Source: Smithella sp. M82
GTDB lineage: Bacteria; Desulfobacterota; Syntrophia; Syntrophales; Smithellaceae
DNA length: 64,000 bases
Direction: 5' to 3'
Assembly (NCBI GenBank): GCA_001683985.1
Contig: MAEO01000189.1
Coordinates: 6,163 to 70,162 of the forward strand
Position numbers and translations under genes: made by a program. Each line of letters opens with the position of its first letter. Position 1 is the first letter of the stretch. Of the stretch, positions 1 through 10,556 are shown piece after piece. Below the pieces are notes generated by a model, which worked only from the letters and a program-made list of their open reading frames with translations, ran no database searches and had not been told where the DNA came from.

Positions 1-1382
1 CACGGATTCGGCCAGCGCAGGCGGCAAAACGGCGTCGCGCCCCATGCGGGCGCGTGGATTGAAACAAACGCCGTGCGTAAAAACTCGATCTGTTTTAAAG
101 TCGCGCCCCATGCGGGCGCGTGGATTGAAACTGGGAATGTCTTTCTGAATCCGCCTTATAGCCAGGTCGCGCCCCATGCGGGCGCGTGGATTGAAACTCC
201 ATTGATGTTGGAGCTTACATGACCGATTTTGTCGCGCCCCATGCGGGCGCGTGGATTGAAACTTACGACACACATTTATTGCAAAAAAAGGCGAACGTCG
301 CGCCCCATGCGGGCGCGTGGATTGAAACATACATGTTGATTAATATCCAGCAATTCGCTTTCGTCGCGCCCCATGCGGGCGCGTGGATTGAAACTTTATT
401 TATTCTTGCCATAAAATTTCCTCCCTTGTCGCGCCCCATGCGGGCGCGTGGATTGAAACCCCACGTGTGTGGGGAACATTTAATACAGCATGTTGTCGCG
501 CCCCATGCGGGCGCGTGGATTGAAACTCGTCGTAACACGCAACATATCAGCTATGTTGCGTGTCGCGCCCCATGCGGGCGCGTGGATTGAAACCACGGAA
601 GGAATATTATCAGCGAGTGGAAACCTAGTCGCGCCCCATGCGGGCGCGTGGATTGAAACATTGTAGCTGCCGCCCATAATGTTCTGATGGACGGTCGCGC
701 CCCATGCGGGCGCGTGGATTGAAACTCGCCCGTCAGGGCAGGGACAAGCCGTCTGCTTTGTCGCGCCCCATGCGGGCGCGTGGATTGAAACCCTGCAAAC
801 TGTGGGGAATCTACATCTGCGGAAAGTCGCGCCCCATGCGGGCGCGTGGATTGAAACAAAATAAGCCTGACAAATGGTTGAAATGTAGCGCGTCGCGCCC
901 CATGCGGGCGCGTGGATTGAAACAGGGCTAAAGAGCGCGTCCTGCGCGATAAAGAAAGTCGCGCCCCATGCGGGCGCGTGGATTGAAACAGATAGTAAAT
1001 CTATTTGTTTCGGCGGAAGATAAGTCGCGCCCCATGCGGGCGCGTGGATTGAAACCAGAAATGAGACATTAACAGCAGGAGAAGGGGCGTCGCGCCCCAT
1101 GCGGGCGCGTGGATTGAAACATTGACACTGCTCACAATGATGTGGCTGCTGGAGGTCGCGCCCCATGCGGGCGCGTGGATTGAAACCCATTGATGTAATT
1201 CACAATAAGTTTAAGGTTGCGTCGCGCCCCATGCGGGCGCGTGGATTGAAACAATCCATGGCAGTAAGGATTACGGATTAGAAGTGTCGCGCCCCATGCG
1301 GGCGCGTGGATTGAAACATCGAGGAGATTTTGAATTTTACTGTTTCCCATGTCGCGCCCCATGCGGGCGCGTGGATTGAAAC
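1..1382 (+). CRISPR. Type I-C-like CRISPR array (leader side truncated)
   Basis: Twenty-one identical 32-bp repeats begin GTCGCGCC and end ATTGAAAC, starting at 34, 100, 166, 231, 297, 363, 428, 495, 562, 628, 694, 760, 826, 892, 958, 1024, 1089, 1155, 1221, 1286 and 1351. They separate 20 complete spacers of 33-35 nt; bases 1-33 are the end of another spacer. The repeat, with its GCGCC/GGCGC stem and GAAAC tail, matches the type I-C (Dvulg) class known from Desulfovibrio. In that class the leader lies 5' of the GTCGC end, so the newest spacers and cas genes should lie left of the window. All repeats are identical, including the last, so the array shows no decay. The short open frames reading through it are not genes. 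Confidence 0.98.
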
Positions 1383-1403: not shown

Positions 1404-1493
1404 ATGTTCCCCACACACGTGGGGATGAACCGGATGCCGATACTGAAAAGGGTATACCTGCTGAATGTTCCCCACACACGTATTGATGTGCCG
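1404..1493 (+). CRISPR. Type I-E-like CRISPR remnant (two repeats, one spacer)
   Basis: A 29-bp repeat at 1404-1432 (ATGTTCCCCACACACGTGGG then GATGAACCG) is followed by a 32-nt spacer (1433-1464) and a second 29-bp copy at 1465-1493. The second copy keeps the first 17 bases but has several changes afterwards, as terminal repeats of a trailer end usually do. The 29+32 spacing and the GTTCCCC...GGGGATGAACCG pattern are those of type I-E arrays. Only 21 bp (1383-1403) separate it from the last I-C repeat, which is too short for a full 32-nt spacer, so the I-E array looks cut off on its left. Confidence 0.85.
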
Positions 1494-1676: not shown

Positions 1677-3176
1677 ATGAAAATAGCTTTTGCCTCTATT
1701 GCGTATGAGTCTCTGGCAATATCGATATTGTCGGCCATCGCCAAAAAAGAAGGACACTCCGTAAAATTATTGCATACCCCTACCCTGTTTAAAGACGGCC
1801 TAACCAGAGAATTCAAAAGACTGGCAAGACTTTTTAGCAATGATAAAGAACTATATAAACAACTCAAGGCATATCAGCCCGATTTAATCGCGTTTTCCGT
1901 GGTAACATTTGATTACCAGCGAGCGCTATACTATGCTGAAAATTTTAAAAAGATTTGCCCCCATACAAAGATCGTTTTCGGCGGCATACATGTCTCTTCC
2001 GTCCCGGAAGTAGTTATTGTCAATGAGTTCATAGACTATATAGTCGTTGGTGAAGGAGAAATCGCCTTCATTGAAATTATCAAACATATTGAAAAAGGGG
2101 ATTCTTCCGATCCTATTGTAAATACCTGGTATAGATCCAAAGACAACACCATTATTAAAGGCCGCCAGATAGGCTTTATTCAAGATCTGGATTCTCTTCC
2201 TCATTTTGACAATGAAATCTGGAAGGATGTGTTTCCCGTAAAATCATATTACCTGACAATGACCTCCAGGGGATGTCCCTACAATTGTTCCTACTGTTTC
2301 AATCATTACTTCAGAAATCTTCCGGCAGAAAAGTCAAATTATATCAGACGGAGAAGCGTTAAACATGTAATTGAAGAGTTAATCTTTTATAAAGAAAAAT
2401 ACAAAATTGAACTAATCGAATTCTGGGATGATGTTTTTATTCTTGATAAAAAATGGCTGAAAGAATTTTTGGAAGCTTACAAAAAAGAAATTCTTATTCC
2501 CTTCAAATGCTACATACATGTTAATTTGTTTGACGAAGATATCGCGATACAATTGAAAGATGCCGGCTGTAAATGGGTGGATTTTGGAATTCAACATATT
2601 AATGAAGAATACCGTAATAAATATTTAAAGCGTAATGAAACAAACGCAGAGATAAGAAAAGCCCTTCAGATTTTGAAAAAACATAGAATTGTTTCCTTTG
2701 CCGATTATATTGTCGGAATGCCCGGAGACACTATAGAGCATTACGAAGAGGCAAGGTTATTCTTTATTGAAAACACACCGGATATAATCGAACCGTACTG
2801 GATGACTTATCATCCTAAAACAGAAATTATCAAAAAAGGATTCGAACATGAGGTTCTTAATGATGAAAAACTGGATTTAATAAATCACGGTTATAATCCT
2901 CACAGTTACTTTGAGATGTCTTCGGCTTCCAATGATTTTCACAATGAATATTATTTTATCCTCAAGGTCCTTCCCGCTGTGCCTGTTTTTCTTAGAAAAA
3001 GACTGACTTACAACTTAGTCAAAAAGATACCTTACTTCATCAAGCTGCCGGTTTTTATTTATTCTATTTTTTATTTGGCTGTAAAACATAGAAGTCCGCG
3101 AATAAAACTTTTTATAACATTATATTTGAAACAAATGATGTGGATATTGAAGTCCAGGATTTTTTCTAATAAATAA
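1677..3176 (+). CDS. B12-binding-type radical SAM protein (first of three)
   Basis: A 499-residue protein with a Rossmann-like cobalamin-binding-type N-terminal domain (about 1-140, including GGIHVSSVPE and GEGE) and a radical SAM core. The iron-sulfur motif is GCPYNCSYC near residues 199-207 (CxxxCxxC). Such enzymes cleave S-adenosylmethionine, and in the B12 branch often methylate or rearrange unactivated carbons in lipids, pigments or antibiotics. The B12 base-off motif DxHxxG is not seen, so cobalamin use is uncertain. The C-terminus is basic and hydrophobic, which may mean membrane association. It starts a three-gene tandem with 3235 and 4735 and lies behind the promoter at 1535. The substrate cannot be told from sequence. 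Confidence 0.85.
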   Translation: MKIAFASIAYESLAISILSAIAKKEGHSVKLLHTPTLFKDGLTREFKRLARLFSNDKELYKQLKAYQPDLIAFSVVTFDYQRALYYAENFKKICPHTKIVFGGIHVSSVPEVVIVNEFIDYIVVGEGEIAFIEIIKHIEKGDSSDPIVNTWYRSKDNTIIKGRQIGFIQDLDSLPHFDNEIWKDVFPVKSYYLTMTSRGCPYNCSYCFNHYFRNLPAEKSNYIRRRSVKHVIEELIFYKEKYKIELIEFWDDVFILDKKWLKEFLEAYKKEILIPFKCYIHVNLFDEDIAIQLKDAGCKWVDFGIQHINEEYRNKYLKRNETNAEIRKALQILKKHRIVSFADYIVGMPGDTIEHYEEARLFFIENTPDIIEPYWMTYHPKTEIIKKGFEHEVLNDEKLDLINHGYNPHSYFEMSSASNDFHNEYYFILKVLPAVPVFLRKRLTYNLVKKIPYFIKLPVFIYSIFYLAVKHRSPRIKLFITLYLKQMMWILKSRIFSNK

Positions 3177-3234
3177 ATACAATAAGGCGGATTTAATCAC
3201 GCCTGTTTTGCAGACTGTCGGAAGGTATATTTAA

Positions 3235-4722
3235 ATGAAAGCTTTGCTGATTAATCCGTTGATACCCGATACTTTCTGGAATTTTCGGCATGTTATGAAG
3301 TTTATCCGCAAAAAGGCGGCTCACGTTCCTCTGGGGCTTCTGACGGTTGCAGCCATGTTTCCTGAGGACTGGGATATTAAGGTCGTGGATATGAACACTG
3401 AAAGCCTTTCGAAGGAAATGATTGAGTGGGCTGATCTGGTCTTCATCGGGGCCATGATGGTTCAAAAAGAATCAGTGCGGCAGATTATCGTCAGATGCCG
3501 CACTCTGGGAAAAGCAGTAGTCGGTGGTGGTCCGCTTTTTACAAGCTGTCCGGAAGATTTTGATGATGTCGATTATCTTGTGCTCAATGAGGCAGAGATA
3601 ACCCTTCCCATGTTTCTGCATGATCTGGCCAGTGGAAGCCCTCGTCGAATCTATACCACTGAAGAAAAGCCTGACATTACCATAACTCCACTTCCCCGAT
3701 GGGATCTCATAGATATAAATATCTACGCTTCCATGTCAGTTCAGTATTCCAGAGGATGTCCTTACGATTGTGAGTTTTGCGATATAACCAATCTTTACGG
3801 ACGATATCCCCGTGTGAAATCGAATGAGCAAATGATTCGGGAGTTTGACAAACTCTATGAAATAGGTTGGCGCGGAAGTCTCTTTATTGTGGATGACAAT
3901 TTTATCGGAAATAAATCGAAGGTCAAAACGCTTCTGCGGGAACTCAAATCATGGCAGGAGACAAAAAATTTTCCATTTATGCTTTATACGGAAGCTTCAG
4001 TAAATCTTGCGCAGGATGAAGAGCTCATGAAACTCATGACGGAAGCAGGTTTTGATGCTGTTTTTCTTGGATTGGAAACACCCGAAGAAAAATGTTTCGC
4101 AGAAAGCAGTAAAAATCAGAATCTTTCGATAGATCTGGTTGAAGCTGTCAAAACGATACAGCGCAACGGAATGGAGGTTATGGGCGGTTTTATAATAGGC
4201 TTTGATAACGATCCTCCGGACATTTTCGAGCGCCAGATTAAGTTCATTCAAAATAGCGGTGTCGTGCGAGCCATGATCGGATTGCTCAATGCACCCCCAG
4301 GTACCCGCCTTTACCGGCGCCTTAAGGAGGAAAGGCGTCTTCTCGATGATTGTACCGGCGATAACTGCGACGGAACCATGAATTTCACTCCCAAAATGGA
4401 CCCACGGACGGTGAAAGAAGGATACAACAAAGTTATTGATTACATATATTCCCCGAAAGCATACTATGCAAGAATTTTGGAATTTTTAGGAACATACAAA
4501 CCCGTAAGACGTCGACCGATGACGTTACTGGGAATAATTGCTTTTTTCAATTCAGTTCTTTATGTAGGAATTATCGAAAAATGGAGCAACAGCATCTATT
4601 TCTGGAAACTGCTGTTTAAAACGATGATTTTTTATCGTCGCTCACTAAGGGAGGCGGTAATGCTTATGATGTTCGGGTATCATTTCCGCAAGTTGTTAAT
4701 AAAAAGAACAAACGTGACTTAA
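3235..4722 (+). CDS. B12-binding-type radical SAM protein, DUF4070-like
   Basis: A 495-residue protein. The N-terminus (MKALLINPLIPDTFWNF) and GGGPLFTSCPEDF are typical of the B12-binding radical SAM group with a C-terminal DUF4070 domain. The cluster motif is RGCPYDCEFC near residue 173. The DUF4070 group includes the hopanoid 2-methylase HpnP, but many members have other or unknown roles, and no hopanoid genes are nearby, so HpnP is not claimed. The start has a GGAAGG-type ribosome site just upstream, and the gap to the preceding gene is 58 bp, so co-transcription is likely. Confidence 0.83.
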   Translation: MKALLINPLIPDTFWNFRHVMKFIRKKAAHVPLGLLTVAAMFPEDWDIKVVDMNTESLSKEMIEWADLVFIGAMMVQKESVRQIIVRCRTLGKAVVGGGPLFTSCPEDFDDVDYLVLNEAEITLPMFLHDLASGSPRRIYTTEEKPDITITPLPRWDLIDINIYASMSVQYSRGCPYDCEFCDITNLYGRYPRVKSNEQMIREFDKLYEIGWRGSLFIVDDNFIGNKSKVKTLLRELKSWQETKNFPFMLYTEASVNLAQDEELMKLMTEAGFDAVFLGLETPEEKCFAESSKNQNLSIDLVEAVKTIQRNGMEVMGGFIIGFDNDPPDIFERQIKFIQNSGVVRAMIGLLNAPPGTRLYRRLKEERRLLDDCTGDNCDGTMNFTPKMDPRTVKEGYNKVIDYIYSPKAYYARILEFLGTYKPVRRRPMTLLGIIAFFNSVLYVGIIEKWSNSIYFWKLLFKTMIFYRRSLREAVMLMMFGYHFRKLLIKRTNVT

Positions 4723-4734
4723 AAAATTTTCACT

Positions 4735-6117
4735 ATGAAAGTATTACTGGTAAATCCTATCACTCGCAATGTTTCTCTTTCCTCGCCGGATCTGGGATTA
4801 GGCTATCTGGCCGGGGCTCTGCAGAAAAAAAATCATCAAGTCGATGTGCTGGATTGTGTAAATCTTAAACTGACTTTTAAAAAATTCGAGGATTATATTG
4901 CCGGGCTTGATTTCGATGTTGTCGGATTCAGAGTGTTTTCTACAGATTTGCCTTCAGTTAAGAAATCTTTGTCGCTGGTTAAAAAGAGACATCCCGATGT
5001 CAAAATTATTCTCGGTGGAGCTCATCCTTCTGCTTTTCCGGAACAAACGTTGCAATATTTTGAAGAAGCCGACTTTGCCGTTAGGGGTGAAGCGGAAATA
5101 GGACTGATAGATTTGATAAACAATTTATCGGGTTTGGATACAATCCCCAAAGAGAGTATTCCCGGTTTAATCTGGAGAAACAACGGTGAAATAAAAAGCA
5201 ACCCTCAAATTTTCCCGGAAAATTTGGATTCACTGGGACATCCTGACTGGAAATTAATAAATCCCTATAATTATCCTTTTCAGACATCCTACCTTACAGA
5301 ATCGAAAATTGTAGCTCCTCTTATTATGACGAGAGGATGTCCTTATCAATGCTCGTTCTGTTCTTGCCGTTCGGTTACCGGGCATAAAATAAGATCGCAT
5401 AGCGTTTCTTATATGATAGAAGAGATAAAGTTCTTAAAGGATAACTTTGGAATAAGGGAAGTTTGTTTCATTGACGATAATTTTCTGGTTTTTAAGAATA
5501 TGGTTAATGATTTGTGTGAACAATTGATTAAACAGAAGATTAATATAAAGTGGTCTTGTTTGGGTATTCGCCTGGATTTGATCAATAAAGACATATTGAC
5601 CTTGATGGAAAAGTCCGGCTGTTACTTATTAACTGTAGGAATAGAGTCAGGGTCTCAAAGAATTCTCGATCATATGAAAAAAAGATTGACTCTTGATCTT
5701 ATCAGGAGAAAAATAAATATTATTAATACCGAAACTAATATCAAAGTTATCGGCAATTTTATTTTGGGTTATCCTTTGGAAAAAGAGGAAGATATTTATA
5801 AGACCATTCAGTTGGCAAAAAGTCTGCCTCTCTCCGGCGCTAATTTTTTCCCTTTTCATCCGGCTCCCGGGACGGAGATATTTGACGAATTGCAGGAGAA
5901 AAAAGAATTAAAAGACATCGACTGGGATTTGATGGGACAGGATCGAAGACCATATATCCCTGAAGGCATTTCTAAACAAAAATTTTCATGGTTGTTTGTT
6001 TATGCATTTTTAAGTTTTTATATGCGTCCCTGGATTATATTTAATGTTATTCTTGCGACTCGTTCTTTTGAGAGATTCAAATACATCTTGCGCAGACTTT
6101 TCACATTTATTAAATGA
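4735..6117 (+). CDS. B12-binding-type radical SAM protein (third of three)
   Basis: A 460-residue protein with an N-terminal B12-type domain (MKVLLVNPITRNVSLSSPDLGLGYLAGAL by position 30; GGAHPSAFPE near 100; VRGEAE) and a radical SAM core with RGCPYQCSFC near residue 200. The later segment with VGIESGSQRILDHMKKRLT is the usual Elp3/MiaB-type fold. It starts 12 bp after the previous stop, so it is part of the same operon. The tail is basic and aromatic, as in its two neighbours. The three are distant paralogues, not recent duplicates. Reaction and substrate are unknown. Confidence 0.83.
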   Translation: MKVLLVNPITRNVSLSSPDLGLGYLAGALQKKNHQVDVLDCVNLKLTFKKFEDYIAGLDFDVVGFRVFSTDLPSVKKSLSLVKKRHPDVKIILGGAHPSAFPEQTLQYFEEADFAVRGEAEIGLIDLINNLSGLDTIPKESIPGLIWRNNGEIKSNPQIFPENLDSLGHPDWKLINPYNYPFQTSYLTESKIVAPLIMTRGCPYQCSFCSCRSVTGHKIRSHSVSYMIEEIKFLKDNFGIREVCFIDDNFLVFKNMVNDLCEQLIKQKINIKWSCLGIRLDLINKDILTLMEKSGCYLLTVGIESGSQRILDHMKKRLTLDLIRRKINIINTETNIKVIGNFILGYPLEKEEDIYKTIQLAKSLPLSGANFFPFHPAPGTEIFDELQEKKELKDIDWDLMGQDRRPYIPEGISKQKFSWLFVYAFLSFYMRPWIIFNVILATRSFERFKYILRRLFTFIK

Positions 6118-7885: not shown

Positions 7886-9010
7886 ATGATAATTTTTGTT
7901 TTGATCTTTATATGTCTTTACGGAGGGATTAATTTTTATGCCTTTTCCCGTGTAAAGAAGGTTTTGCATCTTTCTGTCAAAGCAAAAATTATTATTAAAA
8001 TTTTGCTTGTTTTATTGGTTTTGGCTCCTGTAATCATACGATTGGCAGAGAGTCGCCATTTAGAAACATTAGCGCGGTCGATTGCCTATATTGGTTATCT
8101 ATGGATGGCTTTTGTTTTTTTATTTTTCTTTCTGGACTTAGCTCTTAATTTAAGCAGGAACATATGTAAGTTTTTTTTCAAACGAGCAAGAAGTATTGCT
8201 GTTAGAAATATTGTCTTCGGTTTATCTGTATTTCTTTCTGTTGTTTTTGTTATTTATGGATTTTATGATGCCCAAAGAATTCGGGTAAAAAGGATAGAAA
8301 TTCAAACAGATAAGTTATTGCTCAATAATGGCAAGATCCGGATTGTCCAAATATCCGACGTTCATATTGGATTAATTATTCGTAACAATCGTCTGCAGAG
8401 GATTATTGATTGTGTAAAAGAAGCTGATCCCGATATTCTGGTTTCCACCGGAGATTTGGTGGATGATGAGCTCAACAATGTGATGCCGCAGAGCAGATTA
8501 TTTGCTGACATTAAACCTAAATACGGTAAATATGCAGTTACCGGCAATCATGAATACTATGCCGGCATCGGGAATTCTCTGGAGTTTACAAAAAACGCCG
8601 GATTCGAAATCTTGCGTGATGAAGTGAGACAGGCAGCAGGAATTGCTATAGCTGGTATAGATGACGTAACAGGAAGAAAAATGGGCATAATCAAAGATCA
8701 TCTTCCTTCAGTCAATTTATTACATCTAACACAAAGTAATAAATTTATTTTATTATTAAAACATCAGCCAATTGTTAATGATAATGAAAACTTTAACTTA
8801 CAGCTTTCCGGTCATACGCATGGCGGTCAACTTTTCCCTTTTATGTTAATAACGCGCTTGTTTTTTTCTAAAAATTATGGCTATTATAATTTAGGTGAGT
8901 ACAAGTCGCTTTATGTTACAAGAGGCGCCGGCACATGGGGACCGCCGGTTCGTATTTTGGCGCCTCCGGAAATTACAATCATTGATTTAATTGGTAAGAA
9001 AATCGATTAA
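7886..9010 (+). CDS. Membrane-anchored metallophosphoesterase (YkuE-like)
   Basis: A 374-residue protein from the ATG at 7886, which has AGGAA 5 bases upstream. A TTG at 7838 in the same frame would add 16 residues. Three or four membrane helices fill the first 130 residues. A calcineurin-type phosphoesterase domain follows with the metal motifs ISDVHIG, STGDLVDD, TGNHEYY, KHQP and SGHTHGGQ. Relatives of YkuE and of the UDP-2,3-diacylglucosamine hydrolase LpxG share this layout, so the substrate may be a membrane phosphodiester, but that is inferred. It is a single-gene unit. Confidence 0.87.
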   Translation: MIIFVLIFICLYGGINFYAFSRVKKVLHLSVKAKIIIKILLVLLVLAPVIIRLAESRHLETLARSIAYIGYLWMAFVFLFFFLDLALNLSRNICKFFFKRARSIAVRNIVFGLSVFLSVVFVIYGFYDAQRIRVKRIEIQTDKLLLNNGKIRIVQISDVHIGLIIRNNRLQRIIDCVKEADPDILVSTGDLVDDELNNVMPQSRLFADIKPKYGKYAVTGNHEYYAGIGNSLEFTKNAGFEILRDEVRQAAGIAIAGIDDVTGRKMGIIKDHLPSVNLLHLTQSNKFILLLKHQPIVNDNENFNLQLSGHTHGGQLFPFMLITRLFFSKNYGYYNLGEYKSLYVTRGAGTWGPPVRILAPPEITIIDLIGKKID

Positions 9011-9130
9011 ATTAATTTGATTGCCGTAATTTATATCTATCTGGTGAACAAGATAAAATCATCAGTATATTTGTCGCAAGCATACTGAAAAAGTATTTTC
9101 TATTTGCCTTAATAAAATACTGTTTTCCCC

Positions 9131-9159
9131 TTGACAAGGGTAAAAATCTTAGATAAGAT
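9131..9159 (+). promoter_or_regulatory. Sigma-70-type promoter before the 9297 gene
   Basis: TTGACA at 9131-9136 and TAAGAT at 9154-9159 are separated by 17 bp, in an AT-rich gap, and point to the outer-membrane protein gene at 9297 with a leader near 130 nt. Confidence 0.5.
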
Positions 9160-9296
9160 TATTCACATTTTTAAAAAATATGATAGCCATGTCACATTTC
9201 CGGCACAGTACCGCATATTATGTATCAAAAAGAGTTGTACCGAATATTGTAGCATTATAAGGGAACGCCAAAACTCGTAAATGTTTCAACCGGAGA

Positions 9297-10556
9297 ATGA
9301 TGAATAGTAAAATATTTATTAATTTTTTAACAGTTGTATTTTTTACGTGTATATTATTTATTACTTTTCCCGCTATAGCACAGATTCCCATTAAAGGAAC
9401 ACAGCTTGCTTTCAATAAATTTAATGCGGAAAACGCAGACGCAGCTCTTGATGATATATCTCCTGAAAACCTTCAAAAGAACGTAAAAGAAACAAAGAAA
9501 GATGATGCGCCTAAACTTATTCCGCAGGAAGTAATAAAACCAAAGAAAAATGACTCTTCTCAAAATGTTCTGCAGGAAGTAGTAAAACCAAAACAGGATG
9601 ATTCGCCTTTAACTCTTCAGCAGGAAGTGCAGGAACTTAAGCGGGAAGTGCAAAGAATGCGGGATGAAAATGAAGCCCGCAAGCGATTGGAAGTTCCTGA
9701 AGAAGAGAAAAGTAAATCGGTAGAAGATATTCTTTCCGCCGTCAGCCGTCAATATATATTATTGAAGAAGGGGACCATTGGATTAGGATACACTTTCGGC
9801 TATTCATACTATTCCGGTGATGTCATTACCGACAGGGTTGAACAAAGAAGTAATCACAATCTCACCAACAACATTGATGTTGAATATGCGATACTAAATA
9901 ATCTGACTATAAATGGAAATTTCCCGTTTGCTTATAAATATAACAAGGTAGGTACATCTCAAAGCCAGGAAGCGACCGATATTGGTGATATATCTCTTGG
10001 AGTGCAATGGCAGCCGATTAAGGCCGGAGGTAAATTTCCGACAACGATATTGAGTGCGGGAGTTACGTTTCCTACCGGAACCAGTCCCTACGAAATCGAT
10101 CCGAGTAATTCGTTGTCTACAGGAAATGGGTACTATTCATTTAGCGGTGGAGTTTCTTTAAGTAAGACTTTGGATCCGCTTGTTGCCTTCGGCAACCTGA
10201 CTTACAGTTATGGTCTCGAGCAAGACGGCTTGTCTCAATACTGGAAAACTATGGGTGCTACGCTGACTAAAGTTGATCCCGGCAGCGCTATCGGTTTTGC
10301 CCTGGGATTTGGTTACGCGCTTTCTTATCAGGCATCACTTAACTTAAGCACTCAATTCACTTACTCTTTCGGCAGCAGGTATTTTTTTCAAGATGTTGGA
10401 GTTTATGATCCCGGCAGTTCCGTATCTTCTTCATTTAACGTAGGAACCGGGTGGCGTGTAACTCCAACGAGATCTGTCTATTTTACACTGGGTATTGGAT
10501 TGACCATCAACGATCCTGACTTTGCCTTTGCTATTAGGGTGCCGTTTGAATTTTAA
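9297..10556 (+). CDS. Exported coiled-coil plus outer-membrane beta-barrel protein
   Basis: A 419-residue protein of no named family that I recognise. It begins with a signal peptide (hydrophobic 8-28, cleavage probably after FPAIA). Residues 50-115 are charged and carry imperfect repeats of about 20 residues around the words QEVIKPKK, QEVVKPKQ and QQEVQELK. A short coiled coil (about 108-140) follows. From about 150 to the end the pattern of alternating polar and aromatic residues, with FPTGTSPYE and a last residue Phe (RVPFEF), is that of an outer-membrane barrel. The C-terminal Phe is the usual Bam-complex signal. It may act as a channel or surface sensor; this is inference. Confidence 0.75.
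   Translation: MMNSKIFINFLTVVFFTCILFITFPAIAQIPIKGTQLAFNKFNAENADAALDDISPENLQKNVKETKKDDAPKLIPQEVIKPKKNDSSQNVLQEVVKPKQDDSPLTLQQEVQELKREVQRMRDENEARKRLEVPEEEKSKSVEDILSAVSRQYILLKKGTIGLGYTFGYSYYSGDVITDRVEQRSNHNLTNNIDVEYAILNNLTINGNFPFAYKYNKVGTSQSQEATDIGDISLGVQWQPIKAGGKFPTTILSAGVTFPTGTSPYEIDPSNSLSTGNGYYSFSGGVSLSKTLDPLVAFGNLTYSYGLEQDGLSQYWKTMGATLTKVDPGSAIGFALGFGYALSYQASLNLSTQFTYSFGSRYFFQDVGVYDPGSSVSSSFNVGTGWRVTPTRSVYFTLGIGLTINDPDFAFAIRVPFEF

Follow-up and report, generated by a model that had tools for sequence, protein, structure and literature searches.

A type I-C CRISPR spacer of Smithella sp. M82 opens with 20 nt of a type I-E CRISPR repeat, and its most economical source is probably a phage relative that carries, at the matching site or close to it, a solitary I-E repeat. 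We consider it likely that this spacer (CCCACGTGTGTGGGGAACATTTAATACAGCATGTT, 35 nt, positions 460–494, + strand) derives from a relative of the phage contig IMGVR_UViG_3300002220_000387, where the protospacer would span the boundary of a solitary I-E repeat, a candidate RNA anti-CRISPR (Racr). A solitary repeat on a phage accounts for the spacer no less well than does one CRISPR system sampling the array of another. The preliminary description of this DNA had proposed another CRISPR array as source, that of the cell itself, of a rival strain or of a phage or plasmid; that a phage could be the source stands, while another array is a live option but not the better one.

A type I-C spacer contains part of a type I-E repeat

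The window, by which we mean the whole 64,000-nt stretch of DNA analysed here (C157:6163–70162 of the 2.74-Mb assembly), begins within a type I-C array, in its old, leader-distal end, which occupies positions 1–1382 (+ strand) and combines the 32-nt repeat GTCGCGCCCCATGCGGGCGCGTGGATTGAAAC with spacers of 33–36 nt. The whole array runs from C157:49 to C157:7544 and comprises about 112 repeats, at least 110 of them identical copies of 32 nt, with two N gaps. The end of another contig, C39, bears cas3-cas5-cas8c-cas7-cas4-cas1-cas2, then the leader and then the first I-C repeat; it shares an overlap of about 80 identical bases with the start of C157, which makes operon, leader and array contiguous. 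The Cas3 core, Cas5c, Csd1, Csd2, Cas4 and Cas1c all score over their NCBIfam cut-offs, Cas2 was assigned by position and sequence, and the HD part of Cas3 is present upstream. Both the cas3-cas5c-cas8c-cas7c-cas4-cas1c-cas2 operon adjoining the array and the repeat and spacer lengths, with a repeat ending in GATTGAAAC, identify an intact type I-C locus. Identical spacers recur within the array (11a and 12, 16 and 26, 83 and 87, 85 and 89a), some of them adjoining the N gaps, and are either duplications or scaffolding artefacts.

The spacer at 460–494 is the seventh complete one in the window and number 96 of about 112 in the array, or later when counted from the leader, as the two scaffold gaps hide a few units. 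The 20 nt of its seed end (460–479, + strand) and bases 1–20 of the I-E repeat at 1404–1432 are exact reverse complements of each other; alignment confirmed this match to 1404–1423, on which the preliminary description had been built. The full inverted match pairs 459–481 with 1402–1424 (23 nt, 100%), the bases beyond the 20 being C459 from the I-C repeat and an AA/TT pair outside the I-E repeat. The last C of I-C repeats has been proposed to be PAM-derived (PMC8482600), and the joining of C459 to the match fits that proposal. The remaining 15 nt of the spacer (480–494, + strand) read TTAATACAGCATGTT, and their reverse complement, AACATGCTGTATTAA, would, in the source, lie on the 5′ side of the I-E repeat. 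None of 206 I-C spacers screened in relatives contains an I-E repeat.

A 19-nt core of the match, with up to three mismatches allowed, occurs at 459, 1406 and 1467 in the window and in none of 100 window shuffles, and the analytic chance of the match over all 110 spacers is about 1e-8. Shuffles and arithmetic together exclude a chance match, and chance was rejected as the cause of the 20 matching nucleotides. Coincidence of a more structured kind, in which a palindromic hairpin outside any CRISPR (GTTCCCCAC....GTGGGGAAC), for example a terminator, is identical by accident to 20 nt of the repeat, is scarcely credible. The core is indeed near-palindromic, and a source reading TTCCCCACGTGTGTGGGGAA would put the preferred TTC before the protospacer, but the identity covers 20 exact nucleotides including the loop and the ATGTT start, to which the same analytic chance applies. 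Moreover, IMG/VR holds no exact 20-nt copy other than that of the phage contig, and the full 35-nt spacer has no match in phage or plasmid records.

An orphan I-E remnant adjoins the I-C array

Behind the last I-C repeat, a 21-nt junction (1383–1403, + strand) leads to the 29-nt I-E repeat (1404–1432, + strand), ATGTTCCCCACACACGTGGGGATGAACCG, which contains a 7-bp hairpin (−12.8 kcal/mol). It is followed by the sole remaining I-E spacer (1433–1464, + strand, 32 nt), for which no viral match was found, and by a degenerate terminal repeat (1465–1493, + strand), ATGTTCCCCACACACGTATTGATGTGCCG. The junction is too short for a spacer and unlike the end of the I-E leader in a Smithella genome of the same genus (G015); it is probably a truncated spacer. 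The repeat at 1404 had been taken for an I-E CRISPR repeat, and this assignment holds: a 29-nt repeat with a spacer of about 32 nt and a degenerate terminal repeat make up an I-E array, and the identical 29-nt repeat forms regular arrays in G015, in the family and in other phyla.

No copy of the I-E repeat was found elsewhere in this assembly, a search of the assembly for Cas8e/Cse1 returned none, the assembly has only two Cas1 proteins (one of the I-C operon and one by the III-A array, neither of them an I-E Cas1), and no I-E leader was seen beside 1404–1493. Lacking Cas8e, I-E Cas1 and an I-E leader, the locus is an orphan remnant rather than a functional I-E system, and 1404–1493 is what is left, at the trailer end, of a lost I-E array. 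Elsewhere in the family, an I-C array of a second genus (G030:C35, about 49.3–51.6 kb) has its end fused to a lone I-E repeat, and two of the eight family I-C arrays with a readable trailer end in a fused I-E repeat. Such ends in two genera indicate that I-C and I-E have shared a locus of this kind. The fusions in G030 and in the window raise the question whether I-C has repeatedly taken the place of I-E at a single locus. Directly behind the remnant lie three consecutive genes (1677–6117, + strand), the first two of which match B12-binding radical SAM families, while the third has a repeated motif common to them.

The remnant itself was rejected as the source of the spacer, with only 22 of the 35 nt matching and a different flank. 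It is also probably tolerated by the I-C spacer, since the match extends from the seed end without the PAM-distal 13 nt and is preceded by ATC, not by TTC, the usual PAM of I-C systems. The three bases that precede the match in the resident repeat had been reported as ATC; this is correct, and it is valid for the standard I-E repeat as well.

The search for the source leads to one phage contig

A search for the 35-nt spacer, or for its 15-nt flank joined to the I-E repeat, had been suggested as a check and located no source in the collections covered. The flank followed by the start of the I-E repeat, with up to three mismatches, is absent from 155 genomes of the order, and the exact junction is absent from 84,980 GTDB species genomes and from IMG/VR. 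No full-length protospacer of any I-C spacer was found from which a PAM could be read; a Porphyromonas phage match of I-C spacer 13 proved to be conserved replication-protein coding sequence and was unusable. The preliminary description had placed the protospacer across an I-E spacer–repeat junction: the 5′ edge of the repeat is indeed crossed, whereas the search did not show the other 15 nt to be an I-E spacer. An I-E leader–repeat junction was likewise rejected as source, as the G015 leader ends in ...GGTTAGAAGAAGT and not in AACATGCTGTATTAA. Two apparent parallels were discarded as well, a lone repeat in G015 being the first repeat behind an I-E leader at a contig end, and a pattern match in G431, at first sight another instance of an I-E repeat within a GATTGAAAC-type array, being an ordinary I-E array.

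A cellular I-E array, either the lineage's own, of which 1404–1493 would be the last piece, or that of another cell, is a rather unlikely source, though one to be weighed seriously. I-C adaptation would have crossed a spacer–repeat junction, and the array would have been lost later, so that the self-target disappeared and what was left has neither the right PAM nor a matching flank. The remnant with its identical repeat beside the same I-C array, the arrays that this repeat forms in a congeneric Smithella and in the family, and the G030 fusion, by which the two systems shared a locus, all speak for such a source. So do two precedents from E. coli, where self-derived spacers favour, among other places, the region upstream of a CRISPR array (review PMC10011333) and where spacers have been described against cas genes of a system that the genome lacks (PMC2886076). 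The absence of the junction from the order genomes and the GTDB species genomes argues only weakly against a cellular array, because these collections are without strain-level Smithella. A cellular array also leaves unexplained why the sole viral contig with the 20 nt matches another spacer of this genome, and a self-targeting spacer that works should kill the cell unless the array was lost at once.

The 20-nt stretch, ATGTTCCCCACACACGTGGG, is present in one contig among the 2.9 million of IMG/VR, IMGVR_UViG_3300002220_000387 (23,422 bp), which encodes a large terminase, a portal and a major head protein. Outside cellular genomes, the exact 20 nt occur at a single site, the solitary repeat of this contig (9273–9301), which is identical to window positions 1404–1432 at 29 of 29 nt. 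It is a single, intergenic, viral copy, right behind a phrog_1485 gene and before a small ORF, with no second repeat and no adjoining cas gene. No sigma-70-like site was found on its strand within 8700–9700, and the transcript of the upstream gene could include the repeat. The contig accounts for 20 of the 35 nt exactly; a full protospacer was not found in a member of this phage family. The phage flank 5′ of the repeat reads AACATGATTAGCTTAAT, against AACATGCTGTATTAA for the spacer, with an ungapped identity of 4/15. Among 389 I-E spacer ends, 0 to 6 resemble the spacer's flank as well as the phage does, depending on the scoring, and this likeness is weak: it is gapped, its p value is about 0.003–0.04 by scoring scheme and null, and the comparison was chosen after the likeness had been seen. 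A search with the phrog_1485 and portal proteins of the phage brought up only distant relatives (54% or less), none with such a repeat, and prophages like this phage are represented in the order by one distant capsid homologue.

Two further features of the phage deserve mention. The 61-codon ORF directly downstream of the solitary repeat (L016:4119–4304) is a candidate anti-CRISPR protein gene, as racr genes often adjoin acr genes. The terminase (L068:1979–4723) has 914 aa, and matches of its middle part to several unrelated PHROG families (primase, helicase loader) point to the insertion of an intein.

In a looser IMG/VR scan, solitary and few-copy I-E repeats were common on viral contigs. 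Solitary repeats, candidate Racrs, were seen on L077, L080, L082, L085, L086, L096, L098 and L102, and mini-arrays, candidate interviral arrays, on L070, L071, L072, L081, L084, L087 and L091. The mini-array at L071:8705 ends in a perfectly palindromic repeat, GTTCCCCACATGCGTGGGGAAC, a variant that would give TTC before a protospacer placed like that of spacer 460–494. An origin of the spacer in a phage or plasmid mini-array of two or more I-E repeats, instead of a solitary one, is very improbable. Several viral contigs do bear I-E mini-arrays of two to five repeats, but none of these has the exact 20 nt, and the sole exact match is solitary.

A type III-A spacer links the phage to the host

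The second CRISPR locus, on a contig assigned to this genome by binning (C192), is of type III-A, with Cas10 and Csm3–5 read from translations and a TIGR02710 CARF protein. One of its 25 readable spacers matches phage 3300002220_000387 at 25 of 26 nt (C192:7449–7474 against phage positions 1367–1392), a match that spans 26 of the 36 nt of the spacer. The match scores 44.1 bits, whereas neither 100 shuffled spacer sets nor 569 kb of other viral DNA gave more than 32.2 bits, and the 19-nt core of the match occurs in no other IMG/VR contig and, within the host genome, only in the spacer itself. The phage is the sole IMG/VR contig to match this part of the III-A spacer, and the match indicates that a related phage has met this host. 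Thus, two spacers of two systems in one genome point to one contig of 2.9 million. In addition, I-C spacer 1 (C157:81–114) and III-A spacer 18 (C192) have a 29-nt target in common, in opposite orientation, from which it follows that both systems sample the same invaders.

A model for the origin of the spacer

We propose that the I-C Cas4-Cas1-Cas2 proteins took the spacer from a tailed phage related to 3300002220_000387, whose family would carry an intergenic solitary copy of the I-E repeat of the host lineage. As a candidate Racr, this copy would be expected to sequester the Cas proteins of I-E systems. In the protospacer, the first 20 nt of the phage's I-E repeat would be joined to 15 nt of phage sequence upstream; the I-C complex would bind over the boundary of the repeat in the phage DNA, and its seed would fall within the hairpin. 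The I-C system would hereby hold the memory of a phage counter-defence element aimed at another subtype, one since lost from the genome. The model supposes a source phage with its repeat at the matching site, Racr activity of that repeat and immunity conferred by the spacer. Whether an I-C spacer targets the gene of a phage RNA anti-CRISPR in this full sense, so that a decoy against I-E became an I-C target and I-E has since been lost, seems to us evenly poised.

Several observations weigh against the phage relative as source. The exact 35 nt are in no phage, the III-A match covers 26 of 36 nt on a contig placed by binning, and the likeness of the flanks is weak. An I-E array formerly adjoined the I-C array, so that a cellular source was at hand. 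Finally, the standard I-E repeat, that of the phage included, puts ATC before the protospacer instead of the TTC usual for I-C.

Discussion

A Racr must imitate the repeat of the host and so cannot easily mutate away, which leaves the targeted part conserved. If the phage origin is true, a second CRISPR type that targets a Racr aims at one of the least changeable sites of the phage, and keeping several CRISPR types would have a concrete advantage. If the spacer came from a cellular array instead, it would be the fossil of one CRISPR system sampling another and perhaps helping to remove it. The spacer is a single case whose exact source is missing. Spacers of this kind may be under-counted, as spacer-mapping pipelines may discard matches in or near CRISPR repeats; one published analysis, for example, filters out spacer hits inside arrays (PMC8482600).

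Earlier reports describe spacers directed at cas genes (PMC2886076), Racrs in phages (PMC10651486) and mini-arrays in viruses (PMC6858448). Phage-borne solitary repeat units act as RNA anti-CRISPRs in tested cases, and 2,103 such units have been counted on viral sequences (Camara-Wilpert et al. 2023, PMC10651486). Like these, the phage contig has a single perfect host-type repeat between genes, without cas genes or a second repeat; unlike the tested ones, its repeat is a candidate, and no promoter-like site was seen on its strand. The present case also differs from these reports in the proposal that a spacer is directed at the solitary repeat. The literature covered in our partial search contains no report of host spacers against Racrs, including a candidate Racr of another subtype.

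The E. coli CRISPR3 array, described as an 'anti-CRISPR' (PMC2886076), resembles the I-C array in that its spacers match CRISPR-Cas parts absent from the genome. However, its targets are cas genes of the same subtype, whereas here the target is the repeat of another subtype and the array has a full set of cas genes and more than 100 spacers. A cellular array would be a natural source in the light of the E. coli adaptation hotspot upstream of a CRISPR array (PMC10011333), although those hotspots concern I-E adaptation on the E. coli chromosome, and capture of an array across subtypes is not shown there. As in the mini-CRISPR arrays of interviral conflict (PMC6858448), a host-type repeat is carried by a virus. 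Those mini-arrays contain spacers against other viruses, whereas phage 3300002220_000387 has one repeat and no spacer.
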